In this document: in pieces, positions 47,764-54,360 of the stretch | Layout of the letters: the number at the start of each line of letters is the position of its first letter | Numbering within the stretch: the first letter of the stretch is position 1 | Source: Variovorax paradoxus | GTDB lineage: Bacteria; Pseudomonadota; Gammaproteobacteria; Burkholderiales; Burkholderiaceae_C | Assembly: GCF_009498455.1 (NCBI RefSeq) | Contig: NZ_CP045644.1 | Coordinates: forward strand, 248,001-312,000 | Length of the DNA stretch: 64,000 nt | Direction of reading: 5' to 3' | Translations under genes and position numbers: made by a program | The notes under the pieces: model-generated | What the model was told of the DNA's origin: nothing | What the model saw: the letters and a program-made list of their open reading frames with translations, nothing else | Databases searched by the model: none

Positions 47764-48744
47764 TCAATGGCCTCCCGCCTTGCCCACGCGCAGCCGAGGA
47801 TCGACCACGAAGTACAACAGGTCGACCACGAGGTTGATCACCACGAAGATCAGCGCGATCAGGCACAGGTAGGCGGCCATCACGGGGATGTCCGCGAAGG
47901 TCACGGCCTGGATGAAGAGCAGGCCCATGCCGGGCCACTGGAACACCGACTCCGTGATGATCGCGAAAGCGATCAGCCCGCCGAGTTGCAGACCCGTGAT
48001 GGTCATGACCGGCACCAGCGTGTTCTTGAGCGCGTGGCCGAAATGGATCGCGCGGTTCGACAGGCCCCGTGCGCGCGCGAACTTGATGTAGTCGGTGCGC
48101 AGCACCTCGAGCATCTCGGCGCGCACCAGCCGCATGATCAGCGTGAGCTGGAAGATCGCCAGCGTCACCGCCGGCAGGATGATGTGGTGCCAGCCGTCGG
48201 CCTTGAAGAGCCCACTGGTCCACCAGCCGAACTGCACCGTATCGCCGCGCCCGAAGCTCGGGAACCAGCCCAGCGTCACAGCGAAGACGAGAATCAGCAG
48301 GATGCCGATCAGGAAGGTGGGCAGCGACACGCCGAGCAGCGACACAGTCATGAACACCTGGCTCATGAAGGTGCCACGGCGCAGAGCGGTGTACACGCCC
48401 ATCGGAATGCCGACGAACAGCGCCAGGGCCGCGGCCACCAGTGCGAGTTCGAGCGTGGCCGGGAAGCGCTCGCCGATCAGGCGCGACACCTTGGCGCCCT
48501 GGCGCAGGCTCAGGCCGAACTCGCCTTGTGCGGCATTGACGAGGAAATGCCAGAACTGCACGAAGAAGGGTCGGTCGAGCCCCAATGCGGCGCGCATTTC
48601 ACGGATCTGGTCGGGCTTGGCGTCTTGTCCCAGCAGGAACACGACCGGGTCGCCGACATATTGAAAGAGGAGGAAGGCGATGAACGCGACCGCGATCATC
48701 ACGATCACGGCCTGGATCAGGCGGCGCAGTACAAAGGCAGTCAT
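47764..48744 (-). CDS. dppB: Dipeptide ABC transporter permease, DppB type
   Basis: A 326-residue inner-membrane permease, first gene of the dppB-amidohydrolase-binding protein-dppC-dppD-dppF operon. It starts MTAFVLRRLIQAVIVMI with a first helix at about residues 9-30, has the EAA-type loop YIKFARARGLSNRAIHFGHALKN and ends with the NLVVDLLYFVVDPRLR block of DppB proteins. The order with the permease first and the binding protein third is unusual against the classical dppABCDF arrangement. The 201-bp gap to the porin gene holds its promoter. Confidence 0.93.
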   Translation of the reverse strand: MTAFVLRRLIQAVIVMIAVAFIAFLLFQYVGDPVVFLLGQDAKPDQIREMRAALGLDRPFFVQFWHFLVNAAQGEFGLSLRQGAKVSRLIGERFPATLELALVAAALALFVGIPMGVYTALRRGTFMSQVFMTVSLLGVSLPTFLIGILLILVFAVTLGWFPSFGRGDTVQFGWWTSGLFKADGWHHIILPAVTLAIFQLTLIMRLVRAEMLEVLRTDYIKFARARGLSNRAIHFGHALKNTLVPVMTITGLQLGGLIAFAIITESVFQWPGMGLLFIQAVTFADIPVMAAYLCLIALIFVVINLVVDLLYFVVDPRLRVGKAGGH

Positions 48745-48870
48745 TCAACAACAATAGTGATCGCGGCATGCTAGCAGTGCAAGCAGCGTGCCCGCACGGG
48801 GGTTCCCCCGGGGTGCACACAGATGGTGCTCTTTGCCAACACTGCCCGGCCTCGCGATGACGGCGCACCA

Positions 48871-48907
48871 ATGAAAAAAGCCACCCGGCTTGCGCCGGGT
48901 GGCTTTT
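48871..48907 (-). terminator. Terminator of the left porin gene
   Basis: A 13-bp perfect stem (AAAAGCCACCCGG with CCGGGTGGCTTTT) and six-base loop, with TTTTTTCAT after it on the minus strand. It lies 39 bp past the porin stop. Confidence 0.9.
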
Positions 48908-48945
48908 GGTCTTTCGATTCGAAGCTGGCTTACGCCAGCATCAAA

Positions 48946-50190
48946 TTAGAAAGCGTGACGGATACCGAAGTCGTAGCCGGTCGAGTTCTTCGGGGTGAAG
49001 ACACCGTTGTTGATGAAAGCCGGGCCGCCAACGGTCAGAGCTGCACCGTTCTTGTTGCTCACGCGAGCAACGGTAGCGTACAGAGCCGTGCGCTTCGACA
49101 GGTTGTGCACGTAGCCGAGTGCCAGCTTGTTGGCCTTCGGGTCAGCGATACGCGGGCCGAAGAACACTTCAGGACGGTTGTAGTCGTACTTGACGTGCGA
49201 GTACGAAGCGCGGATCAGGCCAGCACCGACGGGCACGGTCACGCCCAGCAGGTAACCGGTCAGGTCGACGTCAGGCGTAGCAGCAAGGGGGGTGACTTCG
49301 TAGTCAGCCTTGTTCTTGACGCGCGACAGTTCACCGAACAGCTTCACGGGACCGAAGTCGTACGAAGCGCCCAGGTTCAGCGTGTTGACCTTGTTGGTCA
49401 CGCCAGCGTAGAACTGGTCACCCGAGGTGCTGCTGCCATAAGCCAGCGCGACGTCCAGAGGACCGTTGGCGTAGCCGAAGCGGCCACCGACGTAACGACC
49501 GGTGCGCGAGTTGTTCGCAACGTTAGGCGTAGCCAGACCAGGGCTGAACTTGTCCTTTTCGTGGAAGCCGTACTGCACTTGGCCGTAGAAGCCGCCCAGG
49601 TTCGGGGGCAGGAAGTAGCCGATGGTGTTGCTGGCGCGAACGTAGTTCGGGTTGCCACCGAAGCCACCCGAACCGCCGGTGGTGTTGAAACCGCTGGCCG
49701 TCGAGATCAGGTTGGTGCCAACGCCGTTGGTGCCGAACGGATCGAACACGGTGTCGTTCCAGAACGTCGGGGTGTAATCACGACCCAGGCGAACTTCACC
49801 GAAACCACCCGACAGGCTCACGGTCGAGCGACGAGCGAACGTCGACACGCCGGTTGCGCCGTCGTCATTGGTGATCGGGGCTTCGAGCCAGAAGCTGGCT
49901 GCCAGACCGCCACCCAGGTCTTCCGTACCACGGAAGCCCAGACGGCTGGAGTTGTAACCCGAGTTAGCCAGAGCCGTACGGCTGACCTTGACGCTGCCTT
50001 GGTTCAGGTAGAACGGGTTGTAGATCGGGAAGCCAGCAGCGTTGTACGTCACGCCGTTGTTCTGATCACGCGAGGTGGACGAGTAGCCGCTGATCGACGC
50101 GTCGACCACACCAAACAGAGTGACGGACGACTGAGCCGAGGCAACACCGGCAACAGCCAGGGCAGCCAGAGCAACTAGAGATTTTTTCAT
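48946..50190 (-). CDS. Gram-negative porin (OmpC-like, Burkholderiales type), intact copy
   Basis: A 414-residue outer-membrane trimeric porin. The signal peptide MKKSLVALAALAVAGVASAQ is clear, SSVTLFGVVDASI opens the barrel, LGFRGTEDLGGGL is the family block and the protein ends in phenylalanine (IRHAF), as needed for barrel assembly. GGAG lies nine bases before the ATG at 50190. It is almost identical to the start-less porin at 51.8-53.1 kb on the other strand, differing mainly in loop-like segments. The 281 bp upstream (50191-50471), shared with coq7, hold its promoter and a GTTGCA/TGCAAC palindrome at 50370-50385. Confidence 0.95.
   Translation of the reverse strand: MKKSLVALAALAVAGVASAQSSVTLFGVVDASISGYSSTSRDQNNGVTYNAAGFPIYNPFYLNQGSVKVSRTALANSGYNSSRLGFRGTEDLGGGLAASFWLEAPITNDDGATGVSTFARRSTVSLSGGFGEVRLGRDYTPTFWNDTVFDPFGTNGVGTNLISTASGFNTTGGSGGFGGNPNYVRASNTIGYFLPPNLGGFYGQVQYGFHEKDKFSPGLATPNVANNSRTGRYVGGRFGYANGPLDVALAYGSSTSGDQFYAGVTNKVNTLNLGASYDFGPVKLFGELSRVKNKADYEVTPLAATPDVDLTGYLLGVTVPVGAGLIRASYSHVKYDYNRPEVFFGPRIADPKANKLALGYVHNLSKRTALYATVARVSNKNGAALTVGGPAFINNGVFTPKNSTGYDFGIRHAF
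50051..50173 (-). repeat. Porin inverted repeat, left arm block
   Basis: 123 bases encoding the end of the signal peptide and first barrel strands are identical to 51847-51969 on the other strand. Further identical or near-identical blocks continue through both porin genes. Together they make an inverted repeat of about 1.2 kb around coq7 and osmC. Confidence 0.9.
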
Positions 50191-50471
50191 TGCAAGTTTC
50201 TCCAAGGTTAAACATAGGGCTCCGGTGCGAAGGGCTCACCGTGACTGGCACTTTGTGCTCCCACCGGACCCCGGGCCAACCTCCTTTTGGGAAGTTGATG
50301 CTATTGCACCAGAGCCACTGCAACAGGGCAAAACAAATCGCCCTAAATCTTGGAAGCCCCGCGTGTTTCGTTGCAGTCGTGCAACAAAGGACTTAGGCAG
50401 GTCGTTTTTCCACGATGTGAAACAAAATGTGGCCGTCTTGCATCGTCAGGTAGGTGGGTTCAAATAGGCCC

Positions 50472-51101
50472 ATGACCGCTCTGATCGACTCGACCCTGAC
50501 TGCCGCCGATGCAGCTTTGCGCACGCTTTTTGCCCGATCTCATGCCACCCGGTCGCTTCCACCCGCGATCCTGCCGCAAGGTGAAATGACCGAATCGGAG
50601 CGGCGCGAGGCCGGCGCACTGATGCGCGTGAACCATGTCGGCGAAGTGTGTGCTCAGGCGCTGTACACCGCCCAAGCCGCTGTGACGCGCGACCCGGCAT
50701 TGCGGGCCCATTTCTTGGAAGCCGCCCACGAGGAAACAGATCACTTGGCGTGGACCCGGCAACGGCTGGACGATCTGGGGGCCCGCCCCTCGCTCCTGAA
50801 TCCGCTCTGGTACGCAGGCGCCTTCGGTCTCGGCCTGATTGCCGGGCGCCTGGGCGATCCCTTGAGTCTCGGCTTCGTCGCCGAAACCGAGCGGCAGGTG
50901 GAAGCGCACCTCGAAAGCCACTTGGACCGCCTGCCAGCAGCCGACTACGCCTCCCGGGCCGTGGTCGAGCAGATGAAGATCGACGAAGCACGCCATGCCA
51001 CGCAAGCCGTTGACGCAGGTGCGGCGGACCTACCGGCACCGGCCAAGGCACTGATGCGCGTCGCCTCGAAGGTCATGACGACCATCGCGCACCGCATTTA
51101 A
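50472..51101 (+). CDS. coq7: Ubiquinone biosynthesis hydroxylase Coq7 (DMQ hydroxylase)
   Basis: A 209-residue di-iron enzyme that hydroxylates demethoxyubiquinone in ubiquinone synthesis, the alternative to UbiF in many proteobacteria. The iron ligands are visible as E58 (NHVGEVCA), E88xxH91 (EETDH), E140 and E172xxH175 (DEARH). A hydrophobic membrane-interaction helix lies at about 112-127. The ATG at 50472 is preferred over a start 6 codons upstream. It stands between the two inverted porin genes, converges on osmC and shares an upstream gap with the left porin. Confidence 0.95.
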
Positions 51102-51127
51102 GGCCCAGGTCGCGCCGCACGGCGTTT

Positions 51128-51577
51128 TCAGGTCTCGATCAGGTCGAAGCTGGTGGTGATTTCGGCCGTCTTCGCCAGCATGATGCTGGCCGAGCAATAG
51201 GTTTCGTGGCTCAGCGCGATCGCCCGCTCCACGGCGGTCGCCGGAATTCCCTTGCCCGCCACCGTGAAGTGCATGTGGATCTTGGTGAAGACCTTGGGGT
51301 CCTTTTCGGCGCGTTCGCTGGTCAGCTTGACGCTGCAGCGCTCGACGCGATGGCGCCCCCTCTTCAATATGAGCACCACGTCATAGGCTGTGCAACCCCC
51401 GGTGCCCGCGAGCACGGCTTCCATCGGCCGCGCGGCGAGGTTCTGCCCGCCGTTCTCGGGCTTGGCCGCATCCGGCGCGCCGTCCATCATCAGGACATGG
51501 CCGCTGCCAGTTTCGGCCACGAAGCCCATGGCCGATCGGGTGCCTGCATCGCCGGTCCAACTTACTGTGCATTCCAT
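51128..51577 (-). CDS. OsmC/Ohr-family protein (YhfA-like)
   Basis: A 149-residue OsmC-fold protein of the thiol peroxidase type. The two redox cysteines are C62 in TGGCTAYDVV and C128 in SHETYCSASIML. The spacing and the PMEAVLAGTGGC helix fit the YhfA branch rather than Ohr. It probably detoxifies hydroperoxides or handles lipoyl-linked thiols. The ATG at 51577 is used; a TTG five codons upstream is possible. It is convergent with coq7 (26 bp apart). Upstream on the other strand lies the candidate small RNA region. Confidence 0.88.
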   Translation of the reverse strand: MECTVSWTGDAGTRSAMGFVAETGSGHVLMMDGAPDAAKPENGGQNLAARPMEAVLAGTGGCTAYDVVLILKRGRHRVERCSVKLTSERAEKDPKVFTKIHMHFTVAGKGIPATAVERAIALSHETYCSASIMLAKTAEITTSFDLIET

Positions 51578-51663
51578 GGTGTTCAGTTCCAATTGGGATG
51601 AATTCGTGCGGAAAAATGCGCACCAAACATCAACTTGTGTGTGGGAAAAGCATCGCCTGCTTG

Positions 51664-51691
51664 TTGCATCGCAACAAAGGGTGGGTATACT
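51664..51691 (+). promoter_or_regulatory. Promoter upstream of the candidate small RNA
   Basis: TTGCAT (51664-51669) and TATACT (51686-51691) with a 16-base spacer. The -35 lies within a perfect inverted repeat, TTGTTGC-ATC-GCAACAA (51661-51677), which could be an operator. Predicted start of transcription is about 51698. Confidence 0.55.
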
Positions 51692-51697
51692 CTATTT

Positions 51698-51793
51698 CAT
51701 TGCTGCGCACTTCATGGTGTGCACCCAGTTGTCTCCTCCACCCTTCCAATTGGTGGATTTAGCCCCGAGTCGCAAGACTCGGGGCTTTTTTCT
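51698..51793 (+). ncRNA. Candidate small RNA (about 95 nt) or porin leader RNA
   Basis: Between a plausible promoter and a strong intrinsic terminator lies a roughly 95-base segment with three hairpins: UGCGCAC/GUGUGCA (51704-51723), UCCACC/GGUGGA (51737-51757) and the terminator stem (51762-51785). The single-stranded linker CCCAGUUGUCUCC (51724-51736) can pair with the Shine-Dalgarno region GGAGAAACU of the intact porin mRNA over nine base pairs with one bulge. No open reading frame of note is present. It may be a porin-regulating RNA, or the remnant leader of the adjacent porin copy. No family was recognised. Confidence 0.5.
51762..51791 (+). terminator. Intrinsic terminator of the candidate small RNA
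   Basis: A perfect 10-bp stem GCCCCGAGTC/GACTCGGGGC with a GCAA tetraloop, followed by TTTTTT. It stands between the upstream promoter and the right porin copy, so transcription from that promoter would stop before the porin. Confidence 0.92.
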
Positions 51794-51846
51794 TTGTGCG
51801 CCCCGATGGCGGCGCCACTCTAGCCGCTCCCCCTCAAAAGGGCAGC

Positions 51847-51969
51847 TGCTCTGGCTGCCCTGGCTGTTGCCGGTGTTGCCTCGGCTCAGTCGTCCGTCAC
51901 TCTGTTTGGTGTGGTCGACGCGTCGATCAGCGGCTACTCGTCCACCTCGCGTGATCAGAACAACGGCGT
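51847..51969 (+). repeat. Porin inverted repeat, right arm block
   Basis: Identical over 123 bases to 50051-50173 on the other strand. Identity begins abruptly at 51847, inside the signal-peptide codons; the sequence before it is unrelated to the left porin's start and leader. Confidence 0.9.
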
Positions 51970-53134
51970 CACCTACGACAAGCTTGGCTTCCCGGTCTAC
52001 AACCCTTTCTATGTGAACAAGGGCAGTGTCAAGGTCAGCCGTACGACTTTGGCCAACTCGGGTTACAACTCCAGCCGTCTGGGCTTCCGTGGTACGGAAG
52101 ACCTGGGTGGCGGTCTGGCAGCCAGCTTCTGGCTCGAAGCCCCGATCACCAATGACGACGGCGCAACCGGCGTTTCGACGTTCGCTCGTCGCTCGACCGT
52201 GAGCCTGTCGGGTGGTTTCGGTGAAGTTCGCCTGGGTCGTGACTACACCCCGTCGTTCTGGAACGACACCGTGTTCGATCCGTTCGGCGCCAACGGTGTG
52301 GGCACTAACCTGATCTCGACGGCCGGTGGCTTCAACACCACCGGTGGTTCGGGCGGCTTCGGTGGCAACCCCAACTACGCCCGTGCCAGCAACACCATCG
52401 GCTACTTCCTGCCACCGAATCTGGGCGGCTTCTACGGCCAAGTGCAGTACGGCTTCCATGAACAGAACAAGTACGACAGCGGCGATTTCACGCCGAAGGC
52501 CAGCACAGCCTTCGTTCTGAATCCAAAGACGGGTGCGATCGAAAAAACCGATGTTGCAGCTGCGAAAAGTCGCACCGGCCGTTACATCGGTGGCCGCTTC
52601 GGCTACGCCAACGGTCCTCTGGATGTCGCGCTGGCCTATGGCAGCAGCACCTCGGATGACCAGTTCTACGCGGGCACGACCTCCAAGGTCAACACGCTGA
52701 ACCTGGGCGCTTCGTACGACTTCGGTCCCGTGAAGCTGTTCGGTGAAGTGTCGCGCGTCAAGAACAAGGTCGACTACGAAGTCGCCCCGTTCACCGACAC
52801 TACGCCCGACACCAATCTGACCGGCTACCTGCTGGGTGTGACTGTGCCCGTCGGTGCTGGCTTGATCCGCGCTTCGTACTCGTCCGTCAAGTACGACCTG
52901 AACCAGCCCGAGTCGTTCTTCACGCCCCGCGCTGCTGACCCTAAGGCGAACAAGCTGGCCATCGGTTACGTGCACAACCTGTCGAAGCGCACGGCTCTGT
53001 ACGCGACCGTTGCTCGCGTGAGCAACAAGAACGGTGCAGCTTTGACCGTTGGCGGCCCGGCTTTCGCGTCCACGGCCGGCTTCACCCCGAAGACCTCGAC
53101 CGGCTACGACTTCGGCCTCCGTCACGCCTTCTGA
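51848..53134 (+). pseudogene. Gram-negative porin, second copy, lacking its start codon
   Basis: The frame encodes the end of a signal peptide (ALAALAVAGVASA), then a full porin barrel ending in LRHAF. It is nearly identical to the left porin, with changes concentrated in loop-like stretches, including a longer loop near the PKTGAIEKTD segment. The initiator and first codons are missing. Reading back in frame there is no ATG, GTG or TTG before a TAG at 51821. An in-frame ATG at 51806 precedes that TAG by five codons. The first usable codon, GTG at 51911, would skip the signal peptide. It is therefore probably silent, unless recombination restores a start or the junction is an assembly error. 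Confidence 0.75.
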
Positions 53135-53190
53135 TCGACTACGGCTCGATTCTCATGCTGGCCCTTGCCAGTTTGAATCAAGAGGCCTTC

Positions 53191-53221
53191 AAGCCGCCCG
53201 GCTCACGCCGGGCGGCTTTTT
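53191..53221 (+). terminator. Terminator of the right porin copy
   Basis: A perfect 12-bp stem (AAGCCGCCCGGC/GCCGGGCGGCTT) with a TCAC loop and TTTTT. It lies 56 bp past the porin stop and separates it from the convergent recombinase gene. Its survival suggests the porin copy was expressed recently. Confidence 0.92.
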
Positions 53222-53229
53222 GTGCTTCT

Positions 53230-54360
53230 TCAACTCACCCGGCCACGCCTGCTCTGCAGCAGCCCCACATTCATTTCTCCGCTCAGCACCGATGCGTAGA
53301 AACGCTCCACCATGTTGACGCTCGTGCGTGCATTGCGCGCCAAAGTCAGCATGTCGATCCCTTGCCCATACAAGAGCCGCAACGTGATGGCCGTATGGCG
53401 CAGGCAATACAGCGTCCTCGATTGACCCAGCGGCCCCTTTTCGAGCCCGGTCTTTTCGAGCACCCAGTGAAAAAAGAAATTGAGAACCGCCAGCGCGTGC
53501 TCGCGGTTCTTCAGGTGCGGCATGAAGATGTAGTCTTCCGCCCCGCCGAAGCCATGCGCCGCGCGGTGAGCGCGCAAACATTCATAGACGCGAACAGCAG
53601 GCCGCAGGCTCACGATGGGCTGACTGTGCCGCTTGGTCTCCGGCAGGTTCATCCGCAGGTAGACGTGCTTGCCGCGCACGACCTCGATGTGCTTGTGCTT
53701 CATGAGCTTGATGTCGCTGGGGCGCACGAAGGTGTTGACCATCCAGCGGATCAGCCACGGCAACTCGTCGGGCATGACGAGCAGTTCACGCGCGATCCAG
53801 AAGCGTTCGCCAGCCGTCAATCGATCAAGCACCGGGTGCGAGTGACCCCGCAACTTGCGTGCAGCCGCAATCAGGGCGCGGTATTCCGCCACGCTGAAGC
53901 TGCCTCGCGGCTGGCTGCGCACCTTGATCTTCGGAAACACGGGCGCCTCGCGCACCGCACCGGTGTGCACGCCATGCATCACGATCTTGCGCAACAACAC
54001 GAGGTACTGCGCGATCGTCGTGCTGGTGAAGCCTTGCTCGCCGAGGTGATCAATCAGTCGCTGCACATCGGCCGTCACGAACAAGGTCGCTTGCACATCG
54101 CCCAGCAACGGAACGATGTGCGCACGCAATCTGTTGCCCATGACCTGCCATGTGGGCCGTCCGATTTCGCCGCGTTGCACGCGTGCGGCCTCGGCTTGCA
54201 TCAGTCCTTTCGAAAGGTCGCTGACAGAAACTGATAACAAATTCTGCTCAACCGTTATCGAATTAGCGGGCGTATGAATCGCGGGATAGGTGCGCGCAAA
54301 AAAACCGGAATCATTTGCAGCTGGAGCCTTGCGGAATAGGTTTATGACATTTGTGTCCAT
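53230..54360 (-). CDS. Lone tyrosine site-specific recombinase (integrase family)
   Basis: A 376-residue phage-integrase-type recombinase. A SAM-like core-binding region (about 40-130) precedes the catalytic domain. Catalytic candidates are R213 (FVRPSD), K243, R321 in YCLRHT (a tyrosine, Y318, replaces the usual first histidine) and the nucleophile Y355 (ERFY). The NARTSVNMVERFY box matches the NxGTSxxMIExxY variant of some integrases. The ATG at 54360 is preferred over a TTG six codons upstream. No excisionase, phage gene or tRNA is adjacent. Its upstream DNA is visibly more AT-rich than the neighbours, a hint of transfer. It lies 95 bp beyond the start-less porin. Confidence 0.85.
   Translation of the reverse strand: MDTNVINLFRKAPAANDSGFFARTYPAIHTPANSITVEQNLLSVSVSDLSKGLMQAEAARVQRGEIGRPTWQVMGNRLRAHIVPLLGDVQATLFVTADVQRLIDHLGEQGFTSTTIAQYLVLLRKIVMHGVHTGAVREAPVFPKIKVRSQPRGSFSVAEYRALIAAARKLRGHSHPVLDRLTAGERFWIARELLVMPDELPWLIRWMVNTFVRPSDIKLMKHKHIEVVRGKHVYLRMNLPETKRHSQPIVSLRPAVRVYECLRAHRAAHGFGGAEDYIFMPHLKNREHALAVLNFFFHWVLEKTGLEKGPLGQSRTLYCLRHTAITLRLLYGQGIDMLTLARNARTSVNMVERFYASVLSGEMNVGLLQSRRGRVS

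Follow-up and report, generated by a model that had tools for sequence, protein, structure and literature searches.

Why should a porin gene without a start codon keep its reading frame open opposite a complete and nearly identical porin gene? This question is raised by a locus of Variovorax paradoxus that lies in a 64,000-nucleotide stretch of contig NZ_CP045644.1 (positions 248,001 to 312,000; this whole stretch is called the window, and all window coordinates count from its first letter) of a 7.29 Mb genome. The left gene, porL (48946-50190, minus strand), encodes a complete Omp32-like porin (relatives 1e54 and 2fgq in the PDB) with a stop codon at 48946, an ATG at 50188-50190, a leader and the ribosome site TTGGAGAAAC upstream of the ATG. 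The right gene, porR (51845-53134, plus strand), is a start-less porin body that is open up to its stop codon, with CTC in place of the ATG of porL and an in-frame TAG just upstream. Both products, L and R, match Porin_4 (PF13609; 225.6 and 191.1 bits, against a curated cut-off of 27). Between the two genes are coq7 (50472-51101, plus strand), an osmC-like gene (51128-51577, minus strand) and the small RNA RF02278 (Betaproteobacteria toxic small RNA; 51730-51792, plus strand), which ends in a terminator directly upstream of porR. Beyond porR follow a terminator hairpin (53191-53218, plus strand) and int (53230-54360, minus strand), a tyrosine recombinase gene of 376 aa counted from ATG that is the conserved partner of porR.

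The two porin genes share exactly identical blocks of 123 nt (50051-50173 and 51847-51969), 119 nt (49847-49965 and 52055-52173), 68 nt (49778-49845 and 52175-52242) and 64 nt (49330-49393 and 52684-52747), within inverted-repeat arms of 629, 336 and 218 nt at 94, 85 and 94% complementarity, which is far beyond chance. A first-pass annotation of the window had described two near-identical porins with inward-facing 5′ ends around coq7 and osmC; coordinates and Porin_4 matches agree with this, as they do with the three larger blocks and with a start codon and ribosome site in the left copy only, while the 64-nt block is additional. Its remark that loop-like segments differ was likewise upheld: between L and R of the window, 35 of 183 residues outside the predicted strands differ versus 13 of 211 within them (Fisher P value=9e-5; strands predicted from a porin model of modest quality, with a mean predicted local distance difference test score (pLDDT) of 67.5), and in 18 within-genome pairs the differences amount to 34% outside versus 14% within. 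R also carries a 19-residue insertion relative to L. That annotation mentioned neither the recombinase gene adjoining R nor RF02278 just upstream of it.

The best reading of the locus, and one that we consider reasonably probable, is a site-specific inversion switch by which a single promoter, start codon and leader can be set before either of two porin bodies. It builds on what is observed, namely the anatomy of the locus, the pairing with Int, selection on R, a core common to both copies, their inverted placement and a single case of an inverted state between two species; that Int is the inverting enzyme and that inversion takes place within a clone we infer. As proposed, the locus would be a two-state porin switch with a site-specific recombinase of its own. 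The single promoter, start codon and leader would stand at one end of a 1.7-kb segment and a start-less body at the other, behind a terminator; Int would recognize a short core that both inverted copies have within their signal-peptide codons, and recombination at the cores would turn the segment around, so that the leader continues in frame into the other body and porin R replaces porin L. In freshwater relatives, where the bodies stand tail to tail, a flip would exchange the bodies themselves. Porins act both as main gates of permeability and as receptors for phages, and the purpose of the switch would probably be evasion of porin-binding phages or a change of permeability. The switch logic had been put forward in the first-pass annotation and is strengthened by the linked recombinase, the shared core, selection on R and recurrence in other genera; its assumption of general recombination between the copies is not, as a site-specific enzyme is indicated.

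Across Variovorax, 39 copies of R were measured, and in 38 of them the frame runs through to its stop codon (left unmeasured were L161, L176 and L199 at contig ends, L182 with duplicated stretches, L192 with a leader deletion and L200 with no R). The ratio of non-synonymous to synonymous substitution rates (dN/dS) in the seven closest pairs was 0.08-0.20 for R versus 0.27-0.44 for L of the same pairs, and the medians over all 561 pairs, which are not independent, were 0.33 for R and 0.39 for L. The comparison of L with R left out left copies shorter than 390 codons, as well as L157, L167, L182, L184, L189 and L196, in which a stop, a leader insertion, a contig end or a gap in the assembly interfered. 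An upstream in-frame ATG was found in 3 of 41 R copies, always more than 70 codons away. R is hence a start-less body kept open by selection, as a silent cassette would be. In L157 and L182, duplicated or collapsed stretches were seen in both porins and are probably assembly artefacts of near-identical copies.

Int is present in 45 of 101 Variovorax genomes, at a single place per genome, and adjoins ilvA in every one of them, the window included. The motif of the R edge occurs in 42 of the 101, of which 41 also carry Int (Fisher P value=2e-22, uncorrected for relatedness). Contig breaks (G079 and G029), a leader deletion (G063) and a decayed int without R (G062) account for the four genomes with Int only; in the single genome with the motif only (G083), no Int match was found and R is in pieces. 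Where Int is intact, R was broken in 0 of 37 measured genomes, whereas with Int broken or absent, R was broken or gone in three of four: G062, G083 and G078, the last with a stop codon in both Int and R. The exception to this shared fate is G007, with an open R next to an Int that carries a stop. At named loci without the unit (L017, L023, L024, L026-L033 and L035), coq7, osmC and ilvA directly adjoin one another. It is thus almost certain that a recombinase and a selected, start-less porin form a conserved pair.

Int matches an integrase profile of PHROG (phrog_1, 4e-16) and has no Pfam match at 1e-3. Foldseek comparison of its AlphaFold model (pLDDT 78) retrieved Tn1549 Int, Cre and lambda Int at probability 1.00, with template modelling scores of 0.3-0.4 on the query, so that domain placement is unsure. 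Residues R208, K238, R316, H317 and Y350 are invariant among 30 sequences, and R208, K238, R316 and Y350 are those that we take to be catalytic; by modelled fold and putative active-site residues, Int is classed as a tyrosine recombinase. Its median dN/dS is 0.098 (820 pairs of 41 genes). Among the candidates scored, 1499 homologues were found at E≤1e-30, and the source names, where present in the 120 of 1499 listed, are mostly ‘hypothetical protein' or ‘integrase'. Several relatives (L234, L239 and L242) bear N-terminal parts that by eye resemble an antitoxin DNA-binding segment, and the extra N-terminal part of L234 has a weak antitoxin profile match (E 0.11).

The candidate crossover site is the core TGCTCTGGCT, which lies in the signal-peptide codons of porL (50164-50173, minus strand) and again at the R edge (51847-51856, plus strand). 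There it is overlapped by a dyad, AGGGCAG-9 nt-CTGCCCT (51839-51861, plus strand), whose 7-bp halves stand around 9 bp and which occupies the place of the start-codon region. The R edge DNA is close to AAGGGCARYTGCTCTGGCTGCCCTGGC in some 40 Variovorax loci, and its counterpart in L reads ATGAAAAAATCTCTAGTTGCTCTGGCTGCCC, almost invariant among Variovorax loci; a further motif upstream of R, CCACTCTAG (51815-51823, plus strand), is present at most of them. The predicted invertible segment between both cores (50164-51856) would comprise the promoter and start of porL, coq7, osmC and the small RNA. In four genomes of other genera (G609, G616, G606 and G610), L and the start-less copy (S) share only the 10-bp core TGCTCTGGCT and differ on both flanks, and in G623 both carry the variant core CGCTCTGGCT. 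Genus g105 has another core, AACCCTCGTTGCA or longer, common to L and S in five of seven genomes read; in G549 and G382, L and S share other leader stretches. Two candidate recombination sites, inverted with respect to each other, hence bound a segment, as in systems of DNA inversion.

Relatives of Int at E≤1e-20 were found in 20 of 399 sampled genomes of the family Comamonadaceae (three being Variovorax) and, by queries from the genera themselves, in 36 of 84 genomes of g105, 50 of 90 of g112 and 3 of 10 of g148, with part of the Int places of g105 and g112 (60 stretches) being examined. Outside Variovorax, 57 of 60 closer, near full-length Int frames abut a porin frame (55 of 56 among closer relatives with room to see), whereas a porin adjoins 0 of 20 more distant relatives with weaker profile scores; the line between closer and distant relatives, 1e-140, was set after the data were seen. 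The distant relatives L303, L305-L319, L323, L274 and L282, some of which recur in many genomes, had no porin alongside. Among S frames of the 5′-side type, 47 of 53 have no in-frame ATG upstream and 35 of 53 have none of ATG, GTG and TTG.

In 62 of the 63 genomes where both were found, S is inverted relative to the start-bearing porin at the coq7 locus. The two stand head to head in 47 genomes (38 Variovorax, G300, G195, G441, G229, G584, G588, G593, G547 and G598) and tail to tail in 15 (G338, G407, G382, G609, G623, G613, G616, G643, G606, G610, G607, G612, G640, G549 and G386). Other porins lie nearby in G584, G588, G593, G547 and G598, and the partner was picked there by its matching leader; in many examined g105 and g112 genomes, no start-bearing partner was found inside the stretch read. 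On a short contig of G523 (L283:5669-10810), a separate int accompanies each of two start-less porins that lie tail to tail. At 103-126 kb of contig C7 of G312 (L236 and L237), three units of ~7 kb, each consisting of int, a recombinase frame of 200-234 aa and a start-less porin, are stacked inside a porin gene, like serial insertions at the leader.

An inverted state was observed between G407 and G338. Their coq7, promoter and leader, left arm and int are collinear, whereas the DNA from core to core is inverted, the breakpoints falling at the core; within that stretch, one internal 31-bp block runs the opposite way. Compared crosswise, the proteins are 47 and 34% identical, versus 32 and 30% in parallel, and on the tree L407 pairs with S338 and S407 with L338 (support 96 and 88 in the Shimodaira-Hasegawa-like approximate likelihood ratio test, SH-aLRT). 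Among 20 genomes compared pairwise, this is the one clear reciprocal swap pair.

Several observations weigh against a switch. The inverted state is that of one diverged species pair, whose best minus-strand block has 67% identity over 349 bp, and separate gain of the bodies may also explain it. Over 269 comparisons among the 20 genomes with both copies, swap was favoured by more than 0.1 in 3 and the parallel arrangement by more than 0.1 in 10. The inverted form was found in 0 of 38 Variovorax loci with the whole arrangement (outside these 38 are L161, L167, L176, L188, L189, L199 and L200, which lack it) and in none of six g105 genomes; a fixed orientation with the same start-less copy in all related strains was half of what the first-pass annotation had said would argue against its proposal, and the same orientation in 38 of 38 Variovorax loci, with R always start-less, is that half. 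In g112, the residues after the core read ALATL in nine of ten start-less versus none of ten start-bearing copies, and with this sequence being specific to position no recent flip is visible there. As to starts, 3 of 41 R copies have a GTG or TTG no more than 15 codons from the core, and an in-frame ATG lies upstream in 6 of 53 S frames, that of L285 two codons before the core. S is broken although Int is intact in G441 and G598, and S of G386 has an extra base at the core, so that the joined product would be out of frame. Finally, the 63rd genome, G312 (Limnohabitans parvus), has one inverted and three direct start-less copies, the direct ones being the stacked units. Given the single orientation in 38 Variovorax loci and the ALATL pattern of g112, the flipped state would be rare, transient or strongly biased, or else the switch would not be the work of Int; a strongly biased flipped state would resemble directional attB x attP systems.

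The arrangement in G312 bears on the alternative that survives best, although we hold it to be unlikely: start-less porin and Int would together form an integrative element with the porin leader as attachment site, which on integration would bring its own body under the host promoter in place of the earlier one, and the Variovorax copy would be a fixed, immobile remnant. Each of the three G312 units has int and, after it, a directly oriented start-less porin. The units are placed with the start-bearing porin on one side and, judged by eye, the normal host flank on the other, and direct core repeats are found at the unit ends (b1-b3); besides int they encode another recombinase frame and DUF6641, and one of them DUF6876. 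All of this fits such an element. In Variovorax, however, no second core was found on the far side of int in 14 aligned loci, so that excision looks impossible there, while R and Int remain under purifying selection; the orientation in the other 62 genomes is inverted. 

For the Comamonadaceae at large, the chances appear about even that these tyrosine recombinases are a widespread, dedicated family for which a ~10-bp core in porin signal-peptide codons serves as the crossover site, such that the body changes and promoter, start and leader are kept; this would be mostly by inversion and in Limnohabitans by stacking of whole units inside the porin gene, maybe with a change of phage receptor as the outcome.

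Improbable, in our judgement, is a gene-conversion cassette in which R acts as a silent donor whose parts are copied into L by homologous recombination, Int being incidental. Such copying would suit the long identical L/R blocks of the window, whose L and R also lie near each other on the tree, and the mixing of bodies between positions that other genera show. Outside Variovorax, bodies with and without a start are interspersed as if randomly, with 17 label changes against a shuffled mean of 18.4 (127 of 500 shuffles were as low; L is undersampled there, 21 versus 52). Within Variovorax, by contrast, the L/R labels change 6 and 7 times against about 24 in shuffles, and the bodies are thus mostly separate lineages, which fits flipping of a promoter segment better than copying between cassettes. 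Donors also need no Int, yet R is broken or gone in three of the four genomes in which Int is broken or absent. A third porin of the window genome (G000:C1:760451-761671; L201), whose protein is 90% identical to L with nearly the same 5′ leader, could be another partner, either for Int or in gene conversion.

Very improbable is translation of R in place, from an unrecognized start, as an ordinary second porin. Strong purifying selection on R agrees with it, and AAAGGG stands a few bases upstream of an in-frame CTG; yet AAAGGG does not adjoin the core in three g96 edges read, the stretch from the upstream motif to the core differs in length and frame among loci, and a protein started at CTG would be without the charged start of a signal peptide. 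A scan of 48700-53400 for the sigma-70 consensus found no promoter-like site anywhere, L included; it therefore says nothing on a promoter of R, which is possible, but R lies close behind a terminator. A decayed duplication kept similar by chance or gene conversion, the alternative offered in the first-pass annotation, is hardly credible and was rejected, since, for all that R has no start codon and the porins are nearly identical in their 5′ part, 38 of 39 measured R copies are open, dN/dS is far below 1, and the same pairing with Int recurs in other genera.

The small RNA between the cores scores 62.6 bits with the RF02278 covariance model (gathering cut-off 50 bits), and its sequence is identical in five compared Variovorax loci without R. 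By eye, it has a promoter-like TTGCAT-16-TATACT upstream and a CU-rich stretch that could pair with the porin ribosome site.

If the proposed inversion switch is real, it would give soil and freshwater bacteria a new way of varying their surface, would account for start-less porin frames staying intact and would provide ready sites for testing inversion and phage resistance; the Int family could serve as a marker for finding more such loci. A literature search, covering mainly open-access work and mostly at title level, found no report of an invertible or recombinase-linked porin. To our knowledge, switching of Omp32 porins is not described.

Among known systems, the surface-layer (sap) inversion of Campylobacter fetus is RecA-dependent and uses long 5′ homology. 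Like the porin locus, it has a promoter and start on an invertible segment together with unrelated genes, inverted silent cassettes and shared 5′ ends, whereas here the products are porins, a tyrosine recombinase is linked and the core in the signal-peptide codons is ~10 bp. Shufflons and other inversions by tyrosine recombinases, such as those of Rci of R64 and of FimB/FimE, resemble the locus in that the recombinase adjoins its target and inversion selects a coding body or promoter state; Int differs in being nearer to phage integrases (phrog_1), in having a porin as target and in its two sites with unlike flanks, which are closer to attB/attP than to symmetric repeats. The Omp32 porins of known structure (PDB 1e54 and 2fgq) belong to the same porin family as those of the locus, but are ordinary porins. 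In the inversion of the e14 P segment by PinQ, a serine recombinase, a chimeric blocking protein affects porin-dependent phage adsorption (PMC12529663). The enzyme class there is another, and the product is a chimeric blocking protein and no alternative porin; what it has in common with the proposed porin switch is a recombinase-driven inversion that fuses coding parts and bears on how phages adsorb to porins.

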